This document shows positions 336-15,554 of a DNA stretch of 15,554 nt, piece after piece. Within the stretch, counting starts at the first letter, position 1; every line of letters starts with the position of its first letter. A model generated the notes under the pieces. It was not told the origin of the DNA, searched no databases, and saw nothing but the letters and a program-made list of their open reading frames with translations. The stretch covers positions 1 to 15,554 of the forward strand of contig DAHXPE010000163.1 of assembly GCA_027364495.1 (NCBI GenBank), given 5' to 3'. Made by a program: the position numbers and the translations under genes. This DNA is from Candidatus Heimdallarchaeota archaeon (lineage in GTDB: Archaea > Asgardarchaeota > Heimdallarchaeia > Hodarchaeales > LC-3).

Positions 336-1568
336 TTAAATTAAACGCAATTTACTTTCAGTTGCTAATTCATTTTGAAAATGGCATGCTACTTTATGTG
401 AATCAGAAACTTCCATTAATTCAGGTTTGACCTCCATACATTTTTTTTGCATGAAAGGACATCTAGGATGAAATCTGCATCCTGATGGAGGGTTAAGTGC
501 ATCAGCTACTTCGGATTCAGGAATCTCAAAATCAGATTTGTAGTTTGGATCAGGGATAGGGATAGCTTTGAGGAGTGTGTAAGTATAAGGATGTCTGGGT
601 TGCTTGAATACCTCGTTTATATTTCCTGTTTCTACTATTTCACCTACATACATTATTGCGATTTTATTGCAGAAATGTTTTGCAACAGCCAAATCGTGAG
701 TAATGAATAAAATTGACAAATTTAATCGTTCTTTAACCTGGAGGATTAAATCCAATATAGATGCTCTAATTGACACATCAAGCATAGATGTTGGCTCATC
801 AGCAATTAATACCTGCGGATTAACAATAATTGATCTAGCTATGGCAACTCTTTGTCTTTCACCGCCGCTCAATTCATGAGGATATTTATTATAATAATCC
901 ATTGCTGGGTTTAAACCCACTAAAGATAAGATTAATAAAACATCTTTGTCTTGGAATTTTTTGTCTCGTTGGAGTTTGAATCGATAATAAGTATACAACC
1001 CAATAAAGAAAAAGACGACACCATAATAAAAAGCGGGTTGTTGACCAAAAATTAATTTTAATTTATTTGAATAACCTATCATAAAGAAAAAGATCGCTAT
1101 GATACTAAAAATAATTAAACTTATTTCGCCAATATTAGATCCTTTATGGACATTTTTTCTTTCTTCATCTTCGAAACGTCCTTGAATTGCTAAGGCGTTT
1201 GAAAGCTGTTTACCTATTTTTAGTCTTGGATGAAGACTGGTAAAGGGATTCTGAAAAATAAATTGAATATTTTTCCTAAATAACCTACCTTTACGTTCAG
1301 ATGGGAGCATTTTATTGCCTCTCCAATAAAATTCACCCCCTGTTTCAAAATTTAATCCTGCAATGATACGTGCTGTTGTTGTTTTACCACAACCTGATTC
1401 GCCAGCTAATCCAAAAATGTCACCTTGATCAATTTTCAAAGAAATATCATCAACAGCCTTTACTGCTTTTTCTTTTCCTCCTAATATTTTCGCAAACAAA
1501 CTGCCTTCAACAGGAAAATATTTTTTAATGTTTCGTAATTCGATTACAGTTTCTTTTGTATTACTCAT
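336..1568 (-). CDS. dppF: Dipeptide/oligopeptide ABC importer, ATP-binding subunit DppF-like, with membrane insertion
   Basis: This is one of two ATPases that power the peptide importer encoded just upstream. In the 410-residue product, Walker A is GESGCGKTT (56-64), the Q-loop Gln is 106, the signature LSGGERQ is 233-239, Walker B is VLIADEPT (253-260) and the H-loop His is 291. The C-terminal oligo-HPY region (about 363-395) carries Cys364, 370, 377 and 395, a pattern linked to an iron-sulfur cluster in some Dpp ATPases. The odd part is about residues 138-208. Two hydrophobic helices (about 148-165 and 178-195) replace the short link normally found between Q-loop and signature. The ATG at 1568 is preferred because AGGAG lies 12 bases upstream and homology starts there. 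A longer reading from TTG at 1688 adds 40 unlike residues inside dppD. The start overlaps the dppD stop by 8 bases, suggesting translational coupling. Confidence 0.9.
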   Translation of the reverse strand: MSNTKETVIELRNIKKYFPVEGSLFAKILGGKEKAVKAVDDISLKIDQGDIFGLAGESGCGKTTTARIIAGLNFETGGEFYWRGNKMLPSERKGRLFRKNIQFIFQNPFTSLHPRLKIGKQLSNALAIQGRFEDEERKNVHKGSNIGEISLIIFSIIAIFFFMIGYSNKLKLIFGQQPAFYYGVVFFFIGLYTYYRFKLQRDKKFQDKDVLLILSLVGLNPAMDYYNKYPHELSGGERQRVAIARSIIVNPQVLIADEPTSMLDVSIRASILDLILQVKERLNLSILFITHDLAVAKHFCNKIAIMYVGEIVETGNINEVFKQPRHPYTYTLLKAIPIPDPNYKSDFEIPESEVADALNPPSGCRFHPRCPFMQKKCMEVKPELMEVSDSHKVACHFQNELATESKLRLI

Positions 1569-2607
1569 TGTTCGCCAATTCTCCTGATTTTTCATATTCT
1601 GACGTTCCAATGTGACATCTGATAAGATGATTAAAGGAATTAATTTTCCGAAATTCTGGCTCTTCTTTAATACAGATAGTCTTTGCAAATGAACAACGGG
1701 GATTGAAGCGACATCCTGTGGGAGGATTCTTTAAATCTGGGGGGCTACCAGGTATTGATTTCATAGTTTGGTTTTCTTCTAAAATATTGGGAATAGAATT
1801 CATTAAACCTACGGTATACGGATGTTGGGGATTTTTGAATATTTCATTCGTTGAACCAAATTCAACCAGCTTTCCGGCATACATTACTGCTACTTTAGTT
1901 GCTATTTGAGATATAACCCCTAAATCATGGCTAATAAAGATTAAGGACAGTCTTTTTCTTTCTTTTAGTCTTTTGAGAAGAGAAATAATTTTAGCTTGAA
2001 CTAAAACATCTAAAGCAGTAGTTGGTTCATCACAAATAACTAGTTTAGGCTCCAAAATTAATGCTAAAGCAATAGATAATCTTTGCTGCATACCACCAGA
2101 AAATTGAAATGGATAATCATACAATCGACTATAAGGAATATCTAAATCCCCGAAAATTTCTTTAATCCGGTTTACAAATGTTTTTTTATCAAAGTTATGG
2201 GCTTCTAACGTATCAAAGAAATGGTTTTTGATGTTTTGTAATGGATTCAAGGCGTCTTGTGCAGCTTGAAAAACCATCGAGACATATTTCCCCCGCAAAT
2301 TATTCAGATATTCATCAGGGAGTGTCACGATATCAACATATTGTTTATCATTTACTCTAAAAAGGATCTTTCCAGTAGGAATCCTCTTATTACCTTTCAA
2401 TAAATTAATGATTGAAAAGCCTAAAGTAGATTTTCCACAACCAGATTCACCTACTAGACCAATAGAGTCTCCTGGAAAAATATCCATGGAAACTCCATCA
2501 ACTGCTTTGACAAATTCACTTTTATCTTCATAATAAACACGAAGATCCTGAATAGTTAATAGAGGTTTTTCAGGACTTATATTCGAATTATTTACTTGAT
2601 AGTTCAC
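1561..2607 (-). CDS. dppD: Dipeptide/oligopeptide ABC importer, ATP-binding subunit DppD-like
   Basis: This is the second ATPase of the peptide importer, expected to pair with DppF under the DppB/DppC membrane core. The 348-residue product has Walker A GESGCGKST (53-61), Q-loop Gln114, signature FSGGMQQ (169-175), Walker B LVICDEPT (189-196) and H-loop His227. The C-terminal oligo-HPY domain contains GCRFNPRC with Cys299, 305 and 312, plus Cys331. Length is normal for the family, and unlike its partner it has no hydrophobic insert. The start is a GTG at 2607, with GTGGA just upstream and no nearby ATG. It follows dppC by 21 bases and its end overlaps dppF. Assignment to Dpp rather than Opp or nickel transport is not possible from the sequence. 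Confidence 0.93.
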   Translation of the reverse strand: MNYQVNNSNISPEKPLLTIQDLRVYYEDKSEFVKAVDGVSMDIFPGDSIGLVGESGCGKSTLGFSIINLLKGNKRIPTGKILFRVNDKQYVDIVTLPDEYLNNLRGKYVSMVFQAAQDALNPLQNIKNHFFDTLEAHNFDKKTFVNRIKEIFGDLDIPYSRLYDYPFQFSGGMQQRLSIALALILEPKLVICDEPTTALDVLVQAKIISLLKRLKERKRLSLIFISHDLGVISQIATKVAVMYAGKLVEFGSTNEIFKNPQHPYTVGLMNSIPNILEENQTMKSIPGSPPDLKNPPTGCRFNPRCSFAKTICIKEEPEFRKINSFNHLIRCHIGTSEYEKSGELANNE

Positions 2608-2628: not shown

Positions 2629-3798
2629 TTAGTTACGTTTTTGGATCAGAGGGTTATATTTTTCGTTTAATGAGTCGCCTACAAGGGCAAATGAAAAAGC
2701 TAATAAAAAGAGCATTATACCAGGAAAAGTTATTAGCCAAGGAGCCAATTGAATGTTAGGAATAGCAGCAGTTAAATCGTAACCCCAATCAGGAGTTGGT
2801 GGCAGTATTCCTATTCCTAAAAATGCCAATGCTGCCCCCGTTAATATAGCATCGGTCATAGAAAATGGAATTAATGCCATTGGTGCAGCAATAACATTTG
2901 GTAAAATATATCTAAACATTATCGTAAAATCACTAGCACCTAATACCTTAGCTGATTCAACAAATGAAGATTCTCTTATTTGTAACACAATGGATCTTAC
3001 TATAACAAAGAAAGATGGAATATACAGGAGACCCACTGAAAATGAGACTACTAAAATAATTCTCAAAGTTTGTCCTGAGGGAGTATTAGTGTCAATGATA
3101 GAAAAATGTGTGAAAGGGATGAAAATTTGAATATTTTGGATAAAAGTTGATAAAAGAATAGCCAATAACAATGCTGGGAAAGAAACGATTATATCACTAA
3201 CTGTTTTTAAGATACTGTCAATTCGACCTCCATAATACCCACTAATTAATCCTAAAGGTACACCTGCAAAAAAGCATATAAATGCTGCAATAAAGGACAT
3301 TTGAAGAGGAATTTGAGCACCGTAAATAATTCTTGAATAGACATCGTAACCGAATAGAGTGGTGCCCATAATTATTCCGGGACCTGGAGGTTGTTGCCTG
3401 CAATATGCATTATGAGCAGCTCCACAAATATACAATGATTTATCATAACTATAGGGAGCTAAAATAGGAGCAAAGATAGCCATGATTCCAAATATTGTTA
3501 AAATAGCTAACCCAATACCTAATAATTTGTCATTCTTAAATTTCCAGATGAAAATCGAAATAACAATTAACACAAAAATTATTTGAGGTAGGAGTATAAT
3601 AGCAGTGTTGATTAAAATTTCTAGGTTAAAAATCAGATTAAAATTTACTTCTCCTGGTAAACCTATAAGCCAATAGAGAAACAAACATAAAAATATAATT
3701 AAAATTACCCATTTCTTTTTAAAAACATTATAAATTGTGGTTGGAACTGACTGATTAAGTCGAGGATTTTTCAATTCTTCTGGTAATTCTAAAGTCAT
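2629..3798 (-). CDS. dppC: Dipeptide/oligopeptide ABC importer, permease DppC-like, with N-terminal membrane extension
   Basis: This is one of the two membrane permeases of the peptide importer. The 389-residue product is longer than the usual roughly 280-320. The family's usual start (a basic patch, a helix, then FAPILAPYSYDK) is only reached at about residues 86-119. Before it lie two extra hydrophobic helices (about 30-46 and 62-85). The rest is typical: a core of about five helices and the EAA coupling loop ESAKVLGASDFTIMFRYILP (281-300), which contacts the ATPase. The ATG at 3798 is preferred over an upstream TTG at 3819 because AGGCGA lies just upstream. The gene sits 37 bases after dppB and 21 before dppD, consistent with one operon. 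Confidence 0.92.
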   Translation of the reverse strand: MTLELPEELKNPRLNQSVPTTIYNVFKKKWVILIIFLCLFLYWLIGLPGEVNFNLIFNLEILINTAIILLPQIIFVLIVISIFIWKFKNDKLLGIGLAILTIFGIMAIFAPILAPYSYDKSLYICGAAHNAYCRQQPPGPGIIMGTTLFGYDVYSRIIYGAQIPLQMSFIAAFICFFAGVPLGLISGYYGGRIDSILKTVSDIIVSFPALLLAILLSTFIQNIQIFIPFTHFSIIDTNTPSGQTLRIILVVSFSVGLLYIPSFFVIVRSIVLQIRESSFVESAKVLGASDFTIMFRYILPNVIAAPMALIPFSMTDAILTGAALAFLGIGILPPTPDWGYDLTAAIPNIQLAPWLITFPGIMLFLLAFSFALVGDSLNEKYNPLIQKRN

Positions 3799-3835
3799 TT
3801 TTGGTCGCCTTTGTATCAAATTTATTTAATTTCTT

Positions 3836-5299
3836 TTATAATCGCACTCTTTTATCTATTGATGCGTAAATAATGTCAGAAATGAAACTAACAATCGCAA
3901 CACAAATAGAAAATAATATAACTGCTGCCTGTATCTGTGGATAATCTTTACTAACTATAGCATTGTATAAATAAAGACCTAACCCAAAATAAGAAAATGT
4001 AGTTTCAGTTAAAATAGCACCACCTAGCAAAATTGCAAATTGCAAACCAATAATAGGAATAGAAGGAATAGTGGCATTTTTCAAGGCATAATCATATGTT
4101 ATTTTTCTATCTGATATACCACGAGCTTTAGAAGAATCAATAAACTGTTCATATACCACAGTAACCATGTTAGTACGAACAAGACGTGCAACAACACCAG
4201 AAAGCAATAATCCAAGAGTTAAACCAGGTAAGAGTAAGTGGCTAAAAACATCCTGGAATAAAGTTAAACCAGTATAGCTAGCACCCACTGAAACATCAGT
4301 TTTAATGACAAACCAAGATTCATAAAAGTAAGGAATCAAAGGGATAAGACTAAGAAGGATAGCTAAAACGAATATTTTTTTGAAATATCCTTTAGCTTCA
4401 TTTTCAAATGTCGTGTAAAAATATAGCCAGATGAAGAATGAAAAGAAAAAAAGTAAACCTTTAGCCAAAAAGGTATATGTTCCTAATATTGCATCTAATG
4501 ATATAAGTCCTTTATTAAAAACCAAAAACTGAGCAACCTCAGAAATTACAAAGGTAATTCCCAACATGATAAGAGTTTGTTGATTAACTTCTTTTTCGTA
4601 AATTTTGGTATAATAGAAATAAGCGATTAAGAAACTTAAAAACCATACAGCAAATATTACATAATAAATAACATCCCAACCAGGGGGACCTGAAAATAAA
4701 AGTGTATCAACTGAATAAATACCCGTAATACGATGAATATAAGAAGTCACATTAGTACCAGTTCGTAAGTTCGATGGTATCCAACCTAGAGAACCAATAG
4801 TTGTTTTTTGGAATATCTGAGAAAAAATAACTTGCATCCAAATACCCATCCAAAAAATAGGGATGGAATAAACAGCTATTGTATAAATTCTTAATAAATG
4901 ATCGCGATTTTGACCTCGATATTTACCTGAATAGGTTCCAATTAAAATACCTAAAGGTACACCTATAATAGAAGCTAGAATCGAGAGTTCGATTGTTGCC
5001 ATAAATCGAGGAATGATATCATTGATTATCGGTGTGTTACTTTGAATAGCTGATCCAAAATCAAATTTTATAAAAATATTTTGAATAAATAATAAATATT
5101 GATCCCAAAGTGATTTATTAAGTCCGAACTGTGCATTCAATCTAGCAACTTGTGCTGGAGATAACTTCAAATTTAACACTCTAACGGGACTGGCTCCGGG
5201 TAATACCCTAATCAAAAAAAATACTATCGTTGTCAGAACGAATATAGAGACAGGAATCAGAATGATACGTCGGATAACATAACTGCGATAACTAGCCAT
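3836..5299 (-). CDS. dppB: Dipeptide/oligopeptide ABC importer, permease DppB-like, with large membrane insertion
   Basis: This is the first gene of the peptide importer operon and the second half of its membrane channel. The N-terminus is typical of DppB: a basic RSYVIRR, a first helix and FFLIRVLPG at 27-35. The EAA loop is at about 383-412 (QFIDSSKARGISDRKITYDY) and the end ASIDKRVRL is also typical. At 487 residues it is much longer than the usual roughly 310-340. The extra length lies at about 205-345, between the third and fourth family helices, and contains about four hydrophobic helices (near 208-230, 242-262, 272-295 and 308-325). The ATG at 5299 is chosen because family homology begins there. 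A reading from TTG at 5380 would add 27 Phe/Ile/Tyr-rich residues that look like translated AT-rich leader. Confidence 0.92.
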   Translation of the reverse strand: MASYRSYVIRRIILIPVSIFVLTTIVFFLIRVLPGASPVRVLNLKLSPAQVARLNAQFGLNKSLWDQYLLFIQNIFIKFDFGSAIQSNTPIINDIIPRFMATIELSILASIIGVPLGILIGTYSGKYRGQNRDHLLRIYTIAVYSIPIFWMGIWMQVIFSQIFQKTTIGSLGWIPSNLRTGTNVTSYIHRITGIYSVDTLLFSGPPGWDVIYYVIFAVWFLSFLIAYFYYTKIYEKEVNQQTLIMLGITFVISEVAQFLVFNKGLISLDAILGTYTFLAKGLLFFFSFFIWLYFYTTFENEAKGYFKKIFVLAILLSLIPLIPYFYESWFVIKTDVSVGASYTGLTLFQDVFSHLLLPGLTLGLLLSGVVARLVRTNMVTVVYEQFIDSSKARGISDRKITYDYALKNATIPSIPIIGLQFAILLGGAILTETTFSYFGLGLYLYNAIVSKDYPQIQAAVILFSICVAIVSFISDIIYASIDKRVRL

Positions 5300-5360
5300 T
5301 GAACAGTCCAGAATAAAAAGAATGAAAATAAAAGAATAAGAAAAATAAATAAAATAGTTT

Positions 5361-5369
5361 TTTATAAAA
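5361..5369 (-). promoter_or_regulatory. Candidate TATA box for the dpp operon
   Basis: TTTTATAAA on the minus strand resembles an archaeal TATA box. It lies about 60 bases upstream of the preferred dppB start, which would give a leader of about 35 bases. In such AT-rich DNA, chance matches are common. If correct, it argues against the upstream TTG start at 5380. Confidence 0.25.
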
Positions 5370-5509
5370 TTTTGTGTCAAAAGTTGAGCAAATTTAGTTA
5401 GATTGGTTATGGAATTTTTATTGAATGATTTTTTAATATCAGCCTTTCTTTCTTATCAAAAACAAGTATTGAAATTATTCTCTAGGTTGGATAAAAAATA
5501 ACCGATCTA

Positions 5510-7216: not shown

Positions 7217-8737
7217 CTATTCCGGTTCATATAATCCAATAGATGGCCAAATACCAAAAATTCTCAATCGTATTTTTTTGAAAATTTTTGGATAATAATA
7301 TGCTAACGGAATTCCAACAACAATATCAATAAGAAATAAAGCTCTTATAGCTCTTGTTGGATGGTTGGTTAGATTTAAATTTAAAAAATTGTTCAAAACA
7401 AAAATACCAATTTGTTCAGCTATTATAAAGAATGGAATCAATGGTAATGTTAAAAGAGCTATTATAGTAATGACAATAGTATCCAATAAATTCAGATTTG
7501 AATAATTAGCGTGGCTTATTAAAATCCAGCTTAGTGCAAATAAAACTCCTAGCACCATAGCTCTTTTTTGTTCACTTTTTGCTCTGACAATTCCATTCTT
7601 CATAAATAAAAGCACAAAAACTAAACCTAATCCATAAATTAAATAATCAGAACCTGGTATATTAAAAACTTCAACTACAAAAATCTGCATTAATAAAGTT
7701 AATATGATTGCTCCCAATGCACCACCATAAACAGTACCTATTCCACCTATTACTGAATAGATAATTGGAGTAAAAGAGTTGGTTGTATAAAACATTGTAG
7801 GATAAACAGTTGTTTGCCACTGAGCAAATAAATTACCAGCTATACCAGCAAAATATGCACTAACAACAAATGCTAGGATTTTGTAACGTGTTATATTTAT
7901 CCCAATGGATTCAGCAGCTTCTTCATCCTCTCTAATTGCTTTGAATGTGTCGCCTAGTCTGGAATAAGCAAAGAGCATCATAATACCTATTGAAATAAAA
8001 AATATTAATAAAGTAAAATAGTAGAGATTTAATGCATTTATTTGAGCTGCCAGAGGGTTATTCGGATTTACAGGTGTAATTATTTGAGGAATGTTTGAAA
8101 CTCCAAATTCCCCTCCAGGAAAAAGATTTAAATTTGGATTCAATATCGCGTAATAGACAATTAACGGCAGAATTAATGAGACAAGGGCAAAATATGCCCC
8201 TTTTAAACGCAAAGCAATAAATCCAATAAATAGTGCTAATAAAGCTGAAACCAAAGCAGAGACAAAAAATGCTTCAAGTGGAGGCAATAAACTAAATTGA
8301 TTGATAAGTGAGACAATAGCTTTTGTCAAAGGATTTAATTCAATATTGCTTTTTAATATTTGATTTGCACTAGTAAATAGATAAAAGAAATAAGCAGAAA
8401 ATCCGAAAAATAAAGCATGTCCAAAATTGAATTGACCAGTGTAACCTGATAGCAAATCCCAACTAGCAGCAAATATTCCGAAGATTAATGCTAAGGTAAA
8501 AAACGAGAGTATTAAATAATTATTCTGGGATGAAGTTGACGTTGGATTTCCAAATAGACCAGTTTGTACCAGTACCGAATAAAGGTCCGATAAAATAAAA
8601 ATATTAGGGTATTTACCAGCTATTTCGACAGCTCCTTGTAATAAAGGTAAGAAGATCAAGATAAAAAACATTATAATGAAATATTTTTTATCATTTAATT
8701 TCCTACTTATTTTTTCGTAAAATTTTTCTTTAGCCAT
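7217..8737 (-). CDS. livM: Branched-chain amino acid-type ABC importer, permease LivM, with C-terminal membrane extension
   Basis: This is one of the two membrane permeases of the Liv importer. LivM landmarks are LLSGYTGQFNFGHALFFGFS (95-114), the cytoplasmic coupling segment KAIREDEEAAESIGIN (266-281) and GGIGTVYGGALGA (331-343). At 506 residues it is longer than most LivM proteins (about 300-430). Family homology ends near KNGIV at 380-384. The remaining 120 or so residues form an extension with about three hydrophobic helices (near 392-410, 417-444 and 465-482) and a basic end. The ATG at 8737 is supported by GGAG 11 bases upstream. It follows livH by 21 bases and its stop touches the alternative GTG start of livG. 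Confidence 0.93.
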   Translation of the reverse strand: MAKEKFYEKISRKLNDKKYFIIMFFILIFLPLLQGAVEIAGKYPNIFILSDLYSVLVQTGLFGNPTSTSSQNNYLILSFFTLALIFGIFAASWDLLSGYTGQFNFGHALFFGFSAYFFYLFTSANQILKSNIELNPLTKAIVSLINQFSLLPPLEAFFVSALVSALLALFIGFIALRLKGAYFALVSLILPLIVYYAILNPNLNLFPGGEFGVSNIPQIITPVNPNNPLAAQINALNLYYFTLLIFFISIGIMMLFAYSRLGDTFKAIREDEEAAESIGINITRYKILAFVVSAYFAGIAGNLFAQWQTTVYPTMFYTTNSFTPIIYSVIGGIGTVYGGALGAIILTLLMQIFVVEVFNIPGSDYLIYGLGLVFVLLFMKNGIVRAKSEQKRAMVLGVLFALSWILISHANYSNLNLLDTIVITIIALLTLPLIPFFIIAEQIGIFVLNNFLNLNLTNHPTRAIRALFLIDIVVGIPLAYYYPKIFKKIRLRIFGIWPSIGLYEPE

Positions 8738-8758: not shown

Positions 8759-10159
8759 TTAGGTTTGTCCCTCTTTTTTACCAAACAATCCATAAGGTTT
8801 GATAATCATAACTAAAATTACAATAACTAGAGGGACGATTATTGCATATGTAGAATCAATTGTTATTGAAAAAATTGTAATATTTAAAATGCTTACCAAA
8901 ACTGTTGACAGACCTAAAATTAGTGAGGCTATTACAGTTCCTGAAAGAGAACCCATTCCCCCTAAAGTCACGACGACTATTGCAAATATCAATATAGTCC
9001 AACCCATGTTTGGATTCCAAATAGGAATAGCGGAAAAAGAAGAAGTCAATACTGCGGCTAAACCAACTAGCCCCATACCTATCCCTGAAACAATCATGGT
9101 GATTTTTTTAATATTGATTCCAGCTAATGATGATGCAACCTCATCTTGAGAAACAGCTTTTATTGCAAGACCAATTCTAGAATAATTTATAAACACAAAT
9201 AATAATATAAGAACAAAAATAAAGACAATTAGAGAAAAAACTTTTACTGTATTGATACCTGCTCCAAATATAATCATAATATCACTTTTCACGACAATTG
9301 TATCAACATTGTGTGTTCCGGTACCAAATATAGCAAAACTAGTACCATTTTTTGGATAGGACATTAATGAGACAAAACTTTGAAAAATTATAGCTAGAGC
9401 AAAGGTAACTATCATAATATTGACTGTTGAACTTCGTATTCTATCAATTAAATATCTATCAGCTAACATTGCTAAAACAGCAGTAAAAAAAGTAGCTACA
9501 ATAACTAAATTAATATAAATGACAGTAAAATTAAAAATAAAATAAAAAATGGGATTTAAAATACTTATGAATAAAATAATGATTATAGTAGGTTTTTTAT
9601 TAAATTCTAGATACCAGCCAGCTAATACTAAGCACGCTATAGCTAAGCCAGAAAATAATCCACTTGCAAATGAATGACTTAAAATTGATATTCCAGCTAA
9701 AGTTATTAAAGGAGAACACACAAATAAAAATTTAAAAACTAAAATTTCCTCAAAATATCTAAATAGCAAAAAAACTGTTAGTAAAATTATTATAATCGGC
9801 ATTAAAAGAATTAATAACAATAATCCTGATGTTATAGGATCATTAATAGAAAATCCAAGACTGACAGCTATTGCATTTTGCAAAAATACCATTGTGTACG
9901 CACCAATTACATAATAGCCTCCAACAGATAATTTAAACTGCTTTGCTACACCAAATATTAAAGAAAAGCCTATGGACGTAGTTAGATAGATTGATGATAA
10001 AACAATACCTAGCAAAAATGTTTGAAATGCAGTTGTTGGATCAGTTATAGCAAAAGGTGCTAACGATAGGAGAATAATTAAAATAAGGATTGAAATTATT
10101 GTTGTTTTTTCTTGTTTAAAATAATCATTTTCCCAAAATTTAAGTTCCATAATCATCAT
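8759..10159 (-). CDS. livH: Branched-chain amino acid-type ABC importer, permease LivH, with membrane insertion
   Basis: This is the second membrane permease of the Liv importer. Landmarks are the first core helix ending GFSLIFGV (64-71), the coupling segment KAVSQDEVASSLAGINIKKI (334-353), GGMGSLSGTV (400-409) and KPYGLFG (454-460). LivH is usually about 290-310 residues and this product has 466. About 105 of the extra residues lie at roughly 108-214, between the second core helix and the segment RYLIDRIRSST. They contain about four additional hydrophobic helices. One more helix (20-37) precedes the family start. The NFAHG-like motif usual after the first helix reads KLSVGG here. Three in-frame ATGs (10159, 10156, 10150) are possible and none has a strong ribosome site. 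It is separated from livJ by 108 AT-rich bases. Confidence 0.92.
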   Translation of the reverse strand: MMIMELKFWENDYFKQEKTTIISILILIILLSLAPFAITDPTTAFQTFLLGIVLSSIYLTTSIGFSLIFGVAKQFKLSVGGYYVIGAYTMVFLQNAIAVSLGFSINDPITSGLLLLILLMPIIIILLTVFLLFRYFEEILVFKFLFVCSPLITLAGISILSHSFASGLFSGLAIACLVLAGWYLEFNKKPTIIIILFISILNPIFYFIFNFTVIYINLVIVATFFTAVLAMLADRYLIDRIRSSTVNIMIVTFALAIIFQSFVSLMSYPKNGTSFAIFGTGTHNVDTIVVKSDIMIIFGAGINTVKVFSLIVFIFVLILLFVFINYSRIGLAIKAVSQDEVASSLAGINIKKITMIVSGIGMGLVGLAAVLTSSFSAIPIWNPNMGWTILIFAIVVVTLGGMGSLSGTVIASLILGLSTVLVSILNITIFSITIDSTYAIIVPLVIVILVMIIKPYGLFGKKEGQT

Positions 10160-10267: not shown

Positions 10268-11725
10268 TTACACTTTCTTATATTTTTTATAAGCAATAAC
10301 GGTGCCTAAGGTAACAAAGACCGCAAAGAATTCAAAACCGGGTGATGATTTTGCTGAAGTCGTATAACCATTATCTGAATGGTTAATAGGCCATTGTAAA
10401 CCATCCAATTTTACACTCAAAAAGTCTGGAAGATTTGAATAAATTTCTTTTTTCACACCACCTTTTTGCCATTGAACCATTACTGGATTAGGATAGATAC
10501 CACCACCCATGGTTATATTTTCTGGGGTATAAAGATCATGAACGGTAATTTTTTGAGTATAATTTACACCTGGAACGGGAGCCGTCATTCCTGAGGAGTT
10601 TACACCATATTGCGGACCTAACTCATTGGTAAATCTAGTTGTAAATGCGGTACCATTATAATTTGTACTATCAAGATTAGACTGTATTTGAGCACTAGTA
10701 GGAGAAGAGCTCTTTTCAAGTGCTTGAACTAAAATATTAACGGCATCATATGAAGCATAAGCCGTATAAGTTGGTTCTAGACTATATTTGCTATAAAATT
10801 CATTTCTAAATGCTACAGCTTGGGGTCTAGTAGTACTAGGATTTGTTGTTTCAAGTTCTATTTCACCATATGCAGCACCTGCTGTATCTTGGAAGTATGT
10901 AGAGAGTTGTGCTTGAACATTAATTCCAGCTAAAAACTGAGTCATGTTAAGAGCAGCCCATGCTTGGGTAACATATTGCCCTACTGGAGCAGAAAATAGT
11001 TCTAAAATTGCATTGGTATTAGATGGCACAGTTTTGAGAGAAGCTGTTACAGAGTCTTGCGATGCACTTGTACTGATAGGTATATCAGCACTAAATGTCA
11101 CATTGTCTGAAGCAAAAGCGGTAGCAAAAACATATTTTATTGCATTTGATATTGCTAGTGACCAATCGGCTTGTTCTCGAACAATGGTAATATTTTTAAC
11201 ACCCAAACCTTTGTACATATAGAACTGAAAGAATGATAACAAACAAGTTGCAAGATTTGTTCCATTCGTTGGTCCAACTCGCCAAAAGTATGGTGTAATT
11301 ATTGGGGCAGTACTTCCAACACCAAGGAAGGGGAGTTGCCCTAATTGGCTTTGAAGGGATATAGCAACTTCTGTTCTAAAACCACCAATTACAGCAACTA
11401 CTCCATCACCTTTCAATGTCGTCAATGAAGTACCTGCCACTGTGCTATCTGGAAGACCATCGGCTCCTGAAGTGGTTTGATAATCACCTTCTAAATTATA
11501 ATTAGTTCCAGCAACCGTCACACCACCATTGGAATTGACATCAGAAATGGCAAGTTCCATTGCTCTTTTCATATCTTGACCTGGAAGAATAGATAGAGGA
11601 CCTAGCCCACCTATCTTTATCACAGGTGTTGCTTCTTTTGTAGCAGTTACAGTTTGAATTGAAAACATCATTACCATCATTGCTACAATGAGAAAAACAC
11701 AGTAAAATTTCATTTTCTTTTTCAT
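10268..11725 (-). CDS. livJ: Branched-chain amino acid-type solute-binding protein LivJ/LivK-like, membrane-anchored
   Basis: This is the extracellular receptor of the Liv importer (periplasmic-binding-protein type 1 fold). The 485-residue product starts with a signal peptide: MKKKMK, a hydrophobic stretch to about residue 24, then a small-residue region TVTATKEA. The mature part opens with IKIGGLGPLS and contains AMELAISDVNSNGG (56-69), VVAVIGGFRTE (109-119) and TAYASYDAVN (321-330), as in LivJ. Several Asn-X-Ser/Thr sites fit a glycosylated surface protein. The C-terminus has Pro-Gly-Phe (462-464), one hydrophobic helix (about 466-478) and KKYKKV, resembling an archaeal PGF-CTERM-type anchor rather than the lipoprotein anchor common elsewhere. 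The ATG at 11725 has AAAGGG 9 bases upstream. Ligand choice is not readable. Confidence 0.92.
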   Translation of the reverse strand: MKKKMKFYCVFLIVAMMVMMFSIQTVTATKEATPVIKIGGLGPLSILPGQDMKRAMELAISDVNSNGGVTVAGTNYNLEGDYQTTSGADGLPDSTVAGTSLTTLKGDGVVAVIGGFRTEVAISLQSQLGQLPFLGVGSTAPIITPYFWRVGPTNGTNLATCLLSFFQFYMYKGLGVKNITIVREQADWSLAISNAIKYVFATAFASDNVTFSADIPISTSASQDSVTASLKTVPSNTNAILELFSAPVGQYVTQAWAALNMTQFLAGINVQAQLSTYFQDTAGAAYGEIELETTNPSTTRPQAVAFRNEFYSKYSLEPTYTAYASYDAVNILVQALEKSSSPTSAQIQSNLDSTNYNGTAFTTRFTNELGPQYGVNSSGMTAPVPGVNYTQKITVHDLYTPENITMGGGIYPNPVMVQWQKGGVKKEIYSNLPDFLSVKLDGLQWPINHSDNGYTTSAKSSPGFEFFAVFVTLGTVIAYKKYKKV

Positions 11726-11980: not shown

Positions 11981-13735
11981 ATGGTAGAAAATTCTCAAAT
12001 AGTTGAAAGATTATCAATAATGTCACCAGTTGATATAAAAAATTATCCTAGCTATTGTCCTACAAGTTTAAATTATTTTCATCATCCCATATATGAATTT
12101 TTAGAAAAAAGCGTACGTGATTACCCAAATAATATCAGTACAATTTTTTTTGATAAAAAATATACCTATAAACAACTAAAAGAAAAAGTTGATAGGTTAG
12201 CAACTGGTTTAAAAAATCTGGGCCTGAAGAAGAATGACAGAATTGCTATTTATTTGCCTAATTGTCCTCAGTTTGTCATCTCTTTTTTTGCAATCAATAA
12301 GATTGGAGCCATAATAGTTCCTTTTAACACACAATACGTAGATAAAGAAGTAATTTATCAAATAAATGATTCAGGTGCCAAAACTATAATTTGTGTAGAT
12401 ATCGTCTATCCAAGAGTGAATAGATTACAACACGAAGGCAAAATTAAACTGGATCATGTAATTGTAACTTCATTTAGAGAAGAATTAAGTTTAGCTAAAA
12501 AAATCGTTGGAACAGTATTTTTCAGGGTACCTCGGGAAAAAAAGCCAAAAAATGGTCATATTTCTTTTAAAAAATTAATTGAACAATCAGAACCATTTAC
12601 TGAAAACGTTCCGATTGATCCTAGTAATGATATAGCTTTATTGCAATATACTGGTGGAACCACCGGTGTATCTAAAGGATCAATGCTGACACATGATAAC
12701 ATAGTAATGAATCAGCAACAGGTGACTTCATGGATGAATCCCCCGGTAGATATTGGTCATGAAATTTACATGTGTGCCTTACCATTGTTTCATATTTATG
12801 CTTTAAATGTTATTATGATATCTGCTATTAGTCAAGCTTCACAATTAATTTTAATACCTGATCCTAGGGCAGGAAGACCTCGATTACAGGATTTACTGGA
12901 AACTATCCAAAAATATAAGCCAACATATTTTCATGCCATACCAACGCTGTATTTAGGACTCTTGTATCATCCAGATATTAAAAATTATGATCTAACTTCT
13001 TTAAAGGCTTGTTTAAGTGGTGCTGCTCCATTACCCGTTGAAATAATGCTTAATTTTGAAGAATTAACTAATGCTAATGTTGTTGAAGGGTATGGATCAA
13101 CTGAATTAAGTCCTGTCTCACATACAAATCCATTAGATCATTTTACAAAAAAACCTGGAACAGTCGGTTTCCCTTTACCAGATACCTATGTCAAAATTGT
13201 TGATCCCGAGAATCCAACTACTATACTACCTTGGGGAGAAGAAGGAGAGATAGCAATAAAAGGTCCACAGTTGATGAAAGGATACTGGAATAAAGAAGAA
13301 GAAACTATAAAGATAATAACAAAGGATGGTTATTATTTAAGTGGTGATATTGGAAAATTTGATGAGGATGGATATTTAACAATTACTGATCGAAAGAAAA
13401 ATATGATAGATGTTTCAGGACTAAAAGTTTATCCAAGAGAAGTTGAAGAAGTCCTTTTTGAGCATCCAGCAGTAGCAGAAGTAGCCGTTATCGGCATCCC
13501 TCATAAATTTAAAGGTGAAACAGTCAAAGCATTTATTGTTCTGCGTGATAATGAGACAGCAACTGAAGATGAGATGATAGATTTTTGTAAAGGAAGACTA
13601 GCAAGATTCAAAGTTCCAAGTGCGGTAGAATTTTTAGATGAATTACCACGTAGTGCAGTTGGTAAGATTCTTCATCGAGAACTTAGGTCTAGGGAATGGC
13701 AAAAAGCTGGTAAGGAAAAAAACATAGATTCATAG
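11981..13735 (+). CDS. AMP-forming acyl-CoA synthetase (long-chain fatty acid-CoA ligase family)
   Basis: This ANL-superfamily enzyme activates a carboxylic acid with ATP to an acyl-adenylate and then to acyl-CoA in the cytoplasm. The 584-residue product has the phosphate-binding loop YTGGTTGVSKG (223-233), YGSTELSP (371-378), YLSGD with Asp456, DRKKNMIDVSGLKVYPREVE (470-489, including Arg471 and the domain hinge) and PRSAVGKILHREL with the adenylation Lys562. No expected catalytic residue is missing. Length and motifs match bacterial and archaeal FadD-like enzymes. Chain length or acid type cannot be read, so medium-chain, branched or aromatic acids are also possible. The ATG at 11981 has AAAAGGT 8 bases upstream. 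It is transcribed away from livJ across a shared 255-base region, which hints at a linked role in uptake and activation or in amino-acid-derived acid metabolism. Confidence 0.93.
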   Translation: MVENSQIVERLSIMSPVDIKNYPSYCPTSLNYFHHPIYEFLEKSVRDYPNNISTIFFDKKYTYKQLKEKVDRLATGLKNLGLKKNDRIAIYLPNCPQFVISFFAINKIGAIIVPFNTQYVDKEVIYQINDSGAKTIICVDIVYPRVNRLQHEGKIKLDHVIVTSFREELSLAKKIVGTVFFRVPREKKPKNGHISFKKLIEQSEPFTENVPIDPSNDIALLQYTGGTTGVSKGSMLTHDNIVMNQQQVTSWMNPPVDIGHEIYMCALPLFHIYALNVIMISAISQASQLILIPDPRAGRPRLQDLLETIQKYKPTYFHAIPTLYLGLLYHPDIKNYDLTSLKACLSGAAPLPVEIMLNFEELTNANVVEGYGSTELSPVSHTNPLDHFTKKPGTVGFPLPDTYVKIVDPENPTTILPWGEEGEIAIKGPQLMKGYWNKEEETIKIITKDGYYLSGDIGKFDEDGYLTITDRKKNMIDVSGLKVYPREVEEVLFEHPAVAEVAVIGIPHKFKGETVKAFIVLRDNETATEDEMIDFCKGRLARFKVPSAVEFLDELPRSAVGKILHRELRSREWQKAGKEKNIDS

Positions 13736-14012: not shown

Positions 14013-15419
14013 TTAATTTCTTCGTTTTTTGTATGAATAAGCTAAAACGGGGATAGCCATAAGTAAAGCCAAGTAAGTAAAACCAGGTGTAGCAGTAGAG
14101 GTTTTAGAGGCTAGACTTGAGACAACAGGAGCCATTAATTCTTGTGCTTTAGTAACGTTTCCACTTGGGAAGGCACAAGTGCTACCTTTAAGACAGGCAT
14201 TGGGGAATCCCGGTGGAACCATTGAATAAAGGGCTTGATTTGTATTATTAAAGATTTGAGTAACAAATTGGCTTCTATTAACGGAATATTCCATAGCTTG
14301 TCTAACAGCCAACTGAGGAACGGCATCAACATTGATGATAAGATACCTGGTTCCCAAAGTCGGCATAGATGCAGAACCTATGGATGAATCAGCAGAAAGT
14401 GAATTGATCTGATCTGGTGTGAAAGTGTGGAAACCTACATTTAGAACACCACTCTTTATATCGTCAGCTAAAGTAGCAGATGAAGTAAGGAATTTTACAT
14501 CCACCGCTGCATTCGCCGTCGGTTTCTCACCATAAGCAGTCGCGTTATATCCTGAATATGCTTGCAATTGTATGTTGTCTTGAGTCCAGCTGTTTGGTTG
14601 AACAGAGTATGGACCTAATCCTATTGGAACATAGCCAAATCCTTGTGCTGAAGTGGTAACGTTACCAGTATCATCTTCTTTCCAAATAAAAGCATTAGTA
14701 TAGGTCAATTTTTGAAGTGTTGTTCCGTCTTTCTGAAGTAATTTAAATGAGAAAGAGGTAGCGTTTATTGGCGTATAAGATTGGTTATTGATGTTTTGCA
14801 ATAAGAAAGCTGGTTGACCGTTTAATGTATAGCTCTCAGCTCTTTTTAATGACCAAATAACATCACTTACTTGTAATGGAGAACCATCTGTGAATGTCAG
14901 TCCTGGTTTTAAGTTAAAAGTATAGGTTAATCCATCAGGTGAGATAGAATAGCTTTTGGCGGCTCCTAGAACTGCAGCAGTACTGTTGACGGGTACTTCA
15001 AGTAAACCGTGGGACATTTGGACAAGCATGTTAGAACCCCAGTATTCATAAACATTTGCTGGGTCAAGATACGGTAGAGAGTCCGTTGTTCCGACACTAA
15101 TAACATCAGAAGATTTACCAGTTGAAATAGTGTTAAATCGCAAGTATTCAGAAGGTTCTAATTGAACACCAGTAACATTCTTACCATAAGCGACAAATTG
15201 TTTGGTCATGGTAAATAAGGGGAGAACAGGAACATCTTTAGCCATGAGACCTTGAGCATTCTGCTCAGCTTGTGCTCTCACTGCAGGATCAGACGATTGA
15301 AGCATAGTGCTAATATAACCAGCCATTGTAGTGGAGGTATAGTTAGTACCCATTGAAAAGGCACCACTTCCAACGAATGGATCAATATAATCGGATTCAT
15401 CTGGATAGTCCATGAACCA
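14013..15419 (-). CDS. Family-5 (peptide/nickel/opine) solute-binding protein, 5' end missing
   Basis: This is an extracellular receptor of the DppA/OppA type, probably serving the dppBCDF importer. Positions 15419 to about 15120 encode the end of one family-5 domain: WFMDYPDESDYIDPF, then VPVLPLFTMTKQFVAYGKNV and LRFNTIS. A domain beginning follows at once: LPYLDPAN, SYSISPDGLTYTFNLKPGLT, FTDGSPLQVSDVIWSLKRA, then VRQAMEYSVNRSQFV and NVTKAQELM. It stops there, without the second half of the domain. The end is TATPGF, a hydrophobic helix and KKRRN, a PGF-CTERM-like anchor. Real sequence is supported only up to 15419. Beyond that the frame gives unrelated residues and meets a stop at 15474-15476, because the window folds back. 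No genuine start, signal peptide or promoter is visible. Confidence 0.85.
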   Translation of the reverse strand, partial: WFMDYPDESDYIDPFVGSGAFSMGTNYTSTTMAGYISTMLQSSDPAVRAQAEQNAQGLMAKDVPVLPLFTMTKQFVAYGKNVTGVQLEPSEYLRFNTISTGKSSDVISVGTTDSLPYLDPANVYEYWGSNMLVQMSHGLLEVPVNSTAAVLGAAKSYSISPDGLTYTFNLKPGLTFTDGSPLQVSDVIWSLKRAESYTLNGQPAFLLQNINNQSYTPINATSFSFKLLQKDGTTLQKLTYTNAFIWKEDDTGNVTTSAQGFGYVPIGLGPYSVQPNSWTQDNIQLQAYSGYNATAYGEKPTANAAVDVKFLTSSATLADDIKSGVLNVGFHTFTPDQINSLSADSSIGSASMPTLGTRYLIINVDAVPQLAVRQAMEYSVNRSQFVTQIFNNTNQALYSMVPPGFPNACLKGSTCAFPSGNVTKAQELMAPVVSSLASKTSTATPGFTYLALLMAIPVLAYSYKKRRN

Positions 15420-15554
15420 GTTAGAAGCCACTGGAATGTTTGCAGTGACTTTACACTCAACAACTTGGTCAAACTATGTAAATCAATTAGATCAAATGCC
15501 GGTATTCTTGTTGGGTTGGTTCATGGACTATCCAGATGAATCCGATTATATTGA
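15382..15554. repeat. Inverted repeat (38-bp arms) at the right edge
   Basis: Positions 15382-15419 and 15517-15554 are perfect reverse complements, and the second arm runs to the last base of the window. The arms are separated by 97 bases. The match breaks at 15420/15516. Both arms encode the same protein segment WFMDYPDESDYI on opposite strands. The geometry fits a fold-back chimera at a contig end, or less likely a real inverted duplication. Confidence 0.9.
15418..15554 (+). pseudogene. Fragment of a family-5 solute-binding protein on the opposite strand
   Basis: The plus-strand frame starting at 15418 reads QLEATGMFAVTLHSTTW, then SNYVNQLDQMPVFLLGWFMD, then YPDESDYI, and is open to the window edge. 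This is the usual family-5 segment that precedes and includes the (G)WFxDYPDxxxYxDPF motif. It is the sequence expected immediately upstream of the minus-strand gene's WFMDYPDESD. The fragment has no start or upstream half, since the frame meets a stop at 15406-15408 inside the antisense of the other gene. It is therefore not an intact gene, and probably the misplaced 5' continuation of the minus-strand gene. Confidence 0.75.

Follow-up and report, generated by a model that had tools for sequence, protein, structure and literature searches.

A hydrophobic insert, predicted to be a membrane hairpin, within the ATPase domain of a DppF-like importer subunit from Asgard-type archaea

The window analysed here is the whole stretch of 15,554 nucleotides from contig DAHXPE010000163.1 of Candidatus Heimdallarchaeota archaeon. 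Its minus strand carries, from 5380 down to 336, genes in the order dppB-dppC-dppD-dppF-like, and this report concerns the last of them. The ATP-binding cassette (ABC) ATPase encoded there keeps all its catalytic motifs and has 69 additional residues within its helical subdomain. Eleven proteins, the window DppF among them, form a clade with 2, at least 4 or 12 hydrophobic stretches at this site.

The DppF-like ATPase and its insert

The features of the gene are listed below; P-numbers denote database proteins and 8z1v_D is a chain of E. coli DppF.

336..1568, minus strand: DppF-like ATPase, 410 residues, ATG at 1568 (open reading frame, motifs, Pfam domains)
1377..1403, minus strand: Walker A GESGCGKTT, residues 56-64 (motif reading)
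1251..1253, minus strand: Q-loop Gln106 (motif reading)
948..1154, minus strand: insert of 69 residues, 139-207 (phmmer split of P0002 against 8z1v_D)
1134..1166, minus strand: charged N-terminal stalk, residues 135-145, continuous with the first hydrophobic helix (AlphaFold2 helix 135-167)
1068..1133, minus strand: predicted transmembrane helix 1, residues 146-167 (octanol scale, Kyte-Doolittle, AlphaFold2)
1038..1067, minus strand: putative short outer loop NKLKLIFGQQ, residues 168-177 (conservation and lysine count)
978..1037, minus strand: predicted transmembrane helix 2, residues 178-197 (octanol scale, AlphaFold2; weak on Kyte-Doolittle)
957..977, minus strand: charged C-terminal stalk, residues 198-204, ahead of helix 208-216 (AlphaFold2)
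852..872, minus strand: ABC signature LSGGERQ, residues 233-239 (motif reading)
792..806, minus strand: end of Walker B, IADEP, residues 255-259, within IADEPTS (motif reading)
696..698, minus strand: H-loop His291, in FITHDL at 288 (invariant in 11/11 clade proteins)
384..479, minus strand: stretch with four cysteines, C364, C370, C377 and C395 (counterparts of the [4Fe-4S] ligands in E. coli DppF)

The open reading frame holds one ABC ATPase domain in which Walker A, Q-loop, signature, Walker B and H-loop are all intact, so that the statement of the initial annotation that the motifs on both sides are whole and in frame stands. The database copy of the protein, P0001, begins nine codons upstream of the ATG at 1568. 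Pfam assigns ABC_tran (99 bits) and the oligo_HPY C-terminal region (69.8 bits, cut-off 27.1). The four cysteines are invariant in the alignment of all 11 clade proteins, and a [4Fe-4S] site is predicted from them by comparison with the cysteine ligands of E. coli DppF, as given in the accessible part of PMC12136057. DppB, DppC and DppD adjoin the gene and a family 5 binding protein lies nearby; by domain, oligo_HPY region, cysteines and gene neighbours the protein is a DppF/OppF ATPase of the peptide/opine/nickel importers. Neither the NCBIfam equivalog DppF_dipep (NF043071; 278 bits, cut-off 660) nor the subfamily PRK11308.1 (315.9, cut-off 408) was reached; because of the former score we write “DppF-like” and leave dipeptide specificity and the substrate unclaimed.

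The limits of the insert come from P0002, which is 78% identical to the window DppF in a gapless BLAST alignment and thus shares its numbering. In the phmmer comparison with 8z1v_D, residues 8-138 of P0002 pair with 12-138, and 208-395 with 139-323. The insertion point therefore falls exactly between R138 and E139, which are adjacent in E. coli DppF, and no core residue is lost; E. coli DppF in the DppBCDF and DppABCDF complexes (PDB 8z1v, 8z1y) has no insert. The initial annotation had placed about 70 residues with two hydrophobic stretches between Gln106 and LSGGERQ at 233, that is, in the helical subdomain between Q-loop and signature. Frame, alignment and octanol scores against 177 control ATPases bear this out; the size holds as well (69 residues), and only the limits then given, 945-1157 or residues 138-208, give way to 948-1154 or 139-207. 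Also as had been noted, the partner DppD lacks the insert in the alignment.

The controls, mostly fused proteins with two nucleotide-binding domains (NBDs), were drawn from the same hit lists as the relatives described below. On the Wimley-White octanol scale, the best 19-residue segments of the insert score -14.3 (149-167) and -10.5 (179-197), whereas the strongest segment among the 177 controls stands at -7.7, with a median of -3.0 over the best segments of all controls. On the Kyte-Doolittle scale helix 1 reaches 2.59 against a control maximum of 1.76. Counted between the first residues of the Q-loop motif and the signature, the spacing is 127 in the window DppF; 287 of 289 control NBDs have 53-81 (a motif pair was obtained in 167 of the 177 control proteins and none in 10). 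One of the two outliers, P0180 (388), results from mispairing the motifs of two different domains. The other, P0130 (133), is a fused ATPase of haloarchaeal type whose second NBD is interrupted at the same loop by an acidic and hydrophilic insert; given this protein, the loop may be a general insertion site.

AlphaFold2, run on the single chain, gives a confident two-helix hairpin with helices 135-167 and 178-204. The predicted local distance difference test (pLDDT) averages 89 and 94 in the blocks over 141-160 and 75 over 161-170 for helix 1, and 93, 92 and 87 over 181-210 for helix 2. The distribution of lysine and arginine fits cytoplasmic hairpin ends, with two lysines in the 11 residues counted as loop. 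Between the window protein and P0002, 16 of the 19 residues 165-183, mostly of the outer loop, are identical. The best 50 matches listed in a structure look-up with the window model were all ABC ATPases. The insert has 27.5% G+C and the rest of the gene 33.9%, a lower value which we would expect from the codons of hydrophobic residues. Origin from a mobile element with flanking repeats was considered and rejected, since the repeats around the insert, direct and inverted, are A+T-rich and either short or imperfect.

Relatives, hairpin number and kinship

A protein database search with residues 120-222 returned, among 270 candidates, only the window protein itself and P0002. Two whole-protein profile searches, of which the best 120 matches each were taken (mostly fused two-NBD proteins), added P0003, P0004 (Thorarchaeota), P0005 (Hodarchaeales), P0013, P0019, P0022, P0035, P0038 and P0122. 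Among the matches listed, at least ten database relatives, P0002 included, thus share the insertion site, each with a hydrophobic insert, which answers the proposal of the initial annotation to align DppF homologues from related archaea. A tree built without the insert columns unites the window DppF and the ten relatives in one clade (support 100/100). It contained these 11 proteins, 35 of the 177 controls as C-terminal NBD halves, and six outgroup rows, namely the window DppD and five N-terminal halves. All 11 clade members found here keep the insert, a count in which insert-free members could be missed: the tree controls are halves of fused proteins, and insert-free single-chain Asgard DppF proteins, absent from the lists, may exist. 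From plasmid records (at least 5000), at least five relatives gave alignments split in two that span 79-83% of the protein, the pattern to be expected if the insert is absent from them. One scan of GTDB genome contigs gave two bacterial loci only, both long open reading frames with two ABC domains that match just residues 1-28 of the 133-residue query; no relative was found in viral contigs.

One hairpin is present in the window DppF, P0002, P0003, P0004, P0005 and P0013, and four stretches are strong on Kyte-Doolittle in P0019, P0022, P0035 and P0038. P0122 (774 residues, on a contig of 111.6 kb) has twelve stretches on the octanol scale and eleven on Kyte-Doolittle, arranged as six tandem two-helix units. 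Kinship of the hairpins was assessed by a shuffle test that preserves the hydropathy pattern (15 units and 105 pairs from 9 proteins, leaving aside P0002, P0022 and P0038). Units 2 to 6 of P0122 are mutually linked (units 4 and 5, z 10.3; 2 and 4, z 7.8; 4 and 6, z 7.5; 3 and 4, z 6.4); the final one, unit 6, has further links, to P0003 (z 12.0) and the window hairpin (z 7.5), each of these with 0/300 shuffles. The window hairpin is linked in turn to P0003 (z 10.6) and P0013 (z 5.9), again with 0/300 each. By BLAST, unit 6 and the window hairpin align at 30% over a length of 70 residues, and the alignment joins the GQQ and RDKDVL ends of the two. Since units 2 to 6 are interlinked and unit 6 is linked to the window hairpin, the P0122 array is, judging from these similarities, a product of hairpin duplication, at least mainly, with its last unit as the probable counterpart of the single hairpin.

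For the inserts of P0004, P0005, P0019 and P0035, kinship to the window hairpin is suggested by position, by the clade and by weaker links to other one-hairpin proteins; the weaker links found are P0019_a to P0013 (z 4.5, 1/300), P0035_a to P0122 unit 4 (z 4.1, 0/300) and P0004 to P0122 unit 5 (z 3.2, 1/300). The tree pairs P0035 with P0005, and copy number changes three times on it. The constraint that the four two-hairpin proteins be monophyletic is not rejected (approximately unbiased test, p-AU 0.18), so the changes are perhaps fewer than three and the two-hairpin form perhaps arose once.

In the families and literature searched, DppF/OppF ATPases and NBD inserts are known, and no match over cut-off, nor any description, turned up for a multiplying membrane domain that interrupts the ATPase fold of an importer. 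No Pfam family passed its cut-off in the inserts of the window DppF, P0122, P0019, P0022, P0035, P0003, P0004, P0005 and P0013, and no NCBIfam family did so in the P0122 array or in the window insert alone. Below threshold, DUF2207_C matched the inserts of three of eight relatives (E 0.68, 0.69 and 3.5; at most 10 bits, cut-off 33) and Claudin_2 that of P0022 (E 0.15). The P0122 array has no sequence match in the PDB up to E 10 and none in plasmid records up to E 1. Judged by title or start of abstract, none of the papers found describes an ABC ATPase subunit with a membrane insert, which is weak evidence given thin coverage of subscription journals. The accessible part of a survey of Asgard transporters (PMC7997004) reports peptide-family importers in Asgard and mentions no such insert.

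What the insert may do

In the usual picture, the ATPase of an ABC importer is a soluble motor whose sole contact with the membrane is through the coupling helices of the permeases. We believe, with a probability of about 60%, that in a peptide-type ABC importer of Asgard-type archaea the ATPase subunit contains a conserved accessory domain, namely the insert, which is embedded in the membrane and tethers DppF beside DppC. The initial annotation had already suggested an interruption of the helical subdomain by two predicted membrane helices, with a tethered ATPase as geometrically possible; hydrophobicity, the lysine and arginine distribution, the AlphaFold2 hairpin and the ten relatives all agree with it. 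We infer from the sequences, with good support, that each hairpin spans the membrane twice, with both its N-terminal and its C-terminal end on the inner side; DppF would then be made as an integral membrane protein, docked or tethered beside DppC. For E. coli, the accessible part of PMC12136057 describes contacts of DppF N113 and E124 with DppC, each contact of transmembrane domain and NBD being made via a coupling helix, and a turn of the helical subdomain by about 20 degrees between states. As the insertion point lies 14 residues after the position of E124, the hairpin would stand in the bilayer beside DppC. We hypothesise that it serves as a tether: the extra N-terminal helices of DppC could pack on it, and such packing would keep DppF at the translocator and set its orientation. 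Because the helical subdomain rotates in the E. coli cycle, the hairpin, unless it is only loosely held, would have to tilt or shift in every ATP turnover.

Several points weigh against this reading. E. coli N113 and E124 are replaced by H113 and N124 in the window DppF; the contact is not conserved residue for residue and is therefore assumed from position. Helix 2, rich in Tyr and Phe, scores 1.05-1.29 on Kyte-Doolittle, under the control median of 1.35, and the AlphaFold2 model, being of a single chain without its DppBCDF partners, is uninformative on the membrane. The insert changes faster than the core (67% identity against 77-88%). In P0019, P0022 and P0038 the octanol scale gives at least five stretches, which makes an even number of crossings uncertain there, and the model of P0122 is poor (mean pLDDT 57), so that the fold of its 12-helix array is not usable. 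Unit 1 of P0122 has a marginal link only (z 3.0, 4/300), and between the window hairpin and the inserts of P0004, P0005, P0019 and P0035 z does not exceed 3. None of the window's four permeases resembles the hairpins, and any co-evolution with DppB or DppC is conjectural; derivation of the hairpin from helices of DppB, DppC, LivM or LivH was likewise unsupported (best z 2.5 across 15 units).

The main and serious rival is that a permissive loop gathers dispensable membrane hairpins without a specific job, by a ratchet or constructive neutral evolution, which we consider unlikely. The variable copy number and the fast evolution of the insert speak for it, as do the hydrophilic insert of P0130 at the same loop, the somewhat longer spacing (77-81) in 12 control NBDs and the extra residues in all four permeases (DppB +147, DppC +68, LivH about 136, LivM about 130); retention in 11/11 clade members found, among which insert-free ones could be missed, and the nearly identical outer loop of the window protein and P0002 speak against it. 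The same extra hydrophobic stretches in DppB and DppC, together with the Heimdall-CTERM-like tails under the curated cut-off on both binding proteins, would also suit a regulatory or docking module, in which the hairpins bind another membrane partner and switch the ATPase. Candidate partners are extra helices of DppB or DppC, the membrane tail predicted on the binding protein, and some as yet unnamed inhibitor; the hairpins have no sequence kinship to the window's permeases, and we hold this explanation to be rather improbable.

ABC-F proteins have a soluble arm and are not known to have a permease partner, and a further rival is a soluble helical hairpin of that kind, its greasy face packed on another cytoplasmic protein; the prediction of a soluble helical hairpin had been named in the initial annotation as a finding that would overturn the membrane proposal. 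The parallel is real in that the arm of EttA, as described in the accessible part of PMC8782954, is an insert within an NBD as in the window DppF (residues 94-136 of MtbEttA, in NBD1), and helix 2 is unexceptional on Kyte-Doolittle; however, ABC-F proteins have two NBDs per chain and the arm touches the ribosomal L1 stalk (same source). The window DppF, with one ABC_tran domain, lacks the tandem NBDs with an arm in NBD1 that define ABC-F. The octanol scores of -14.3 and -10.5, the inside-positive lysine and arginine pattern, and the versions with at least 4 and 12 stretches argue against a soluble form, which is very unlikely. An assembly or frameshift error, of which the initial annotation had named a local assembly error as its other refuting case, has a negligible probability and is ruled out: the insert is in frame and ten relatives on contigs of different sources carry it.

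Two further comparisons help to place the protein. P0130 resembles it in having the insert at the same loop, ahead of the helix with VGL, in the second NBD; it differs in that its insert is hydrophilic and acidic and its two NBDs are fused. An ATPase and membrane helices in one chain are also found in ABC half-transporters and NBD-membrane fusions such as MacB and ABCG2, where the membrane part stands before or after the NBD and is itself the translocator. In the window DppF, by contrast, the predicted membrane part interrupts the NBD, and separate DppB and DppC permeases are present.

A bolder extension of the membrane-tether reading, for which we see only a slim chance, is a class of importers in which a tandemly multiplying ATPase membrane domain (one to six hairpins) passes the ATP-driven rotation of the subdomain into the bilayer, as a second coupling route besides the permease coupling helices. 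A natural clade with membrane helices on the moving helical subdomain, up to six pairs of them, would test how much freedom this subdomain needs and how the subunits of heteromeric importers stay together. It also exposes a site of the ATPase fold tolerant of very large inserts, and hints at a lineage that elaborates its transporters with extra hydrophobic segments.

Neighbouring genes and their extra segments

The remaining genes referred to above are as follows.

1561..2607, minus strand: DppD-like partner ATPase, without the insert
2629..3819, minus strand: DppC-like permease; precise start codon uncertain
3836..5380, minus strand: DppB-like permease
11981-13735, plus strand: acyl-CoA ligase gene
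14013-15431, minus strand: family 5 binding-protein open reading frame, at the far end of the window

A Liv (branched-chain-amino-acid-type) ABC cluster, 11725-5594, precedes the dppB-dppC-dppD-dppF-like genes. Upstream of the dppB start, at a distance of about 8.6 kb and beyond the Liv cluster and the CoA ligase gene, is the family 5 binding-protein frame, which may be part of the DppBCDF-like importer. A search of the window for tRNA genes and Rfam families found none.

In DppC the N-terminal part comprises residues 1-89 (3553-3819) against 21 in E. coli (+68); residues 37-55 and 74-92 form two additional hydrophobic stretches. DppB has residues 195-374 (4259-4798) against 33 in E. coli (+147) in the region of transmembrane helices 3 and 4, with four strong extra hydrophobic stretches. 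The LivH-like permease (8759-10159) has about 136 extra residues inside its domain, and the LivM-like permease (7217-8737) about 130 at its C-terminus.

Heimdall-CTERM-like membrane tails end the binding proteins 10268-11725 (20.5 bits) and 14013-15431 (17.1 bits), both below the cut-off of 24; they hint that the DNA comes from an archaeon of Heimdallarchaeia type. The latter frame has about 154 residues ahead of the family 5 domain and covers positions 4-274 only of PF00496. By eye, it starts like the end of a family 5 domain, and the frame 15278-15520 reads like the preceding stretch; 14013-15520 may encode a binding protein of tandem or permuted structure, interrupted by a frameshift close to the end of the window.
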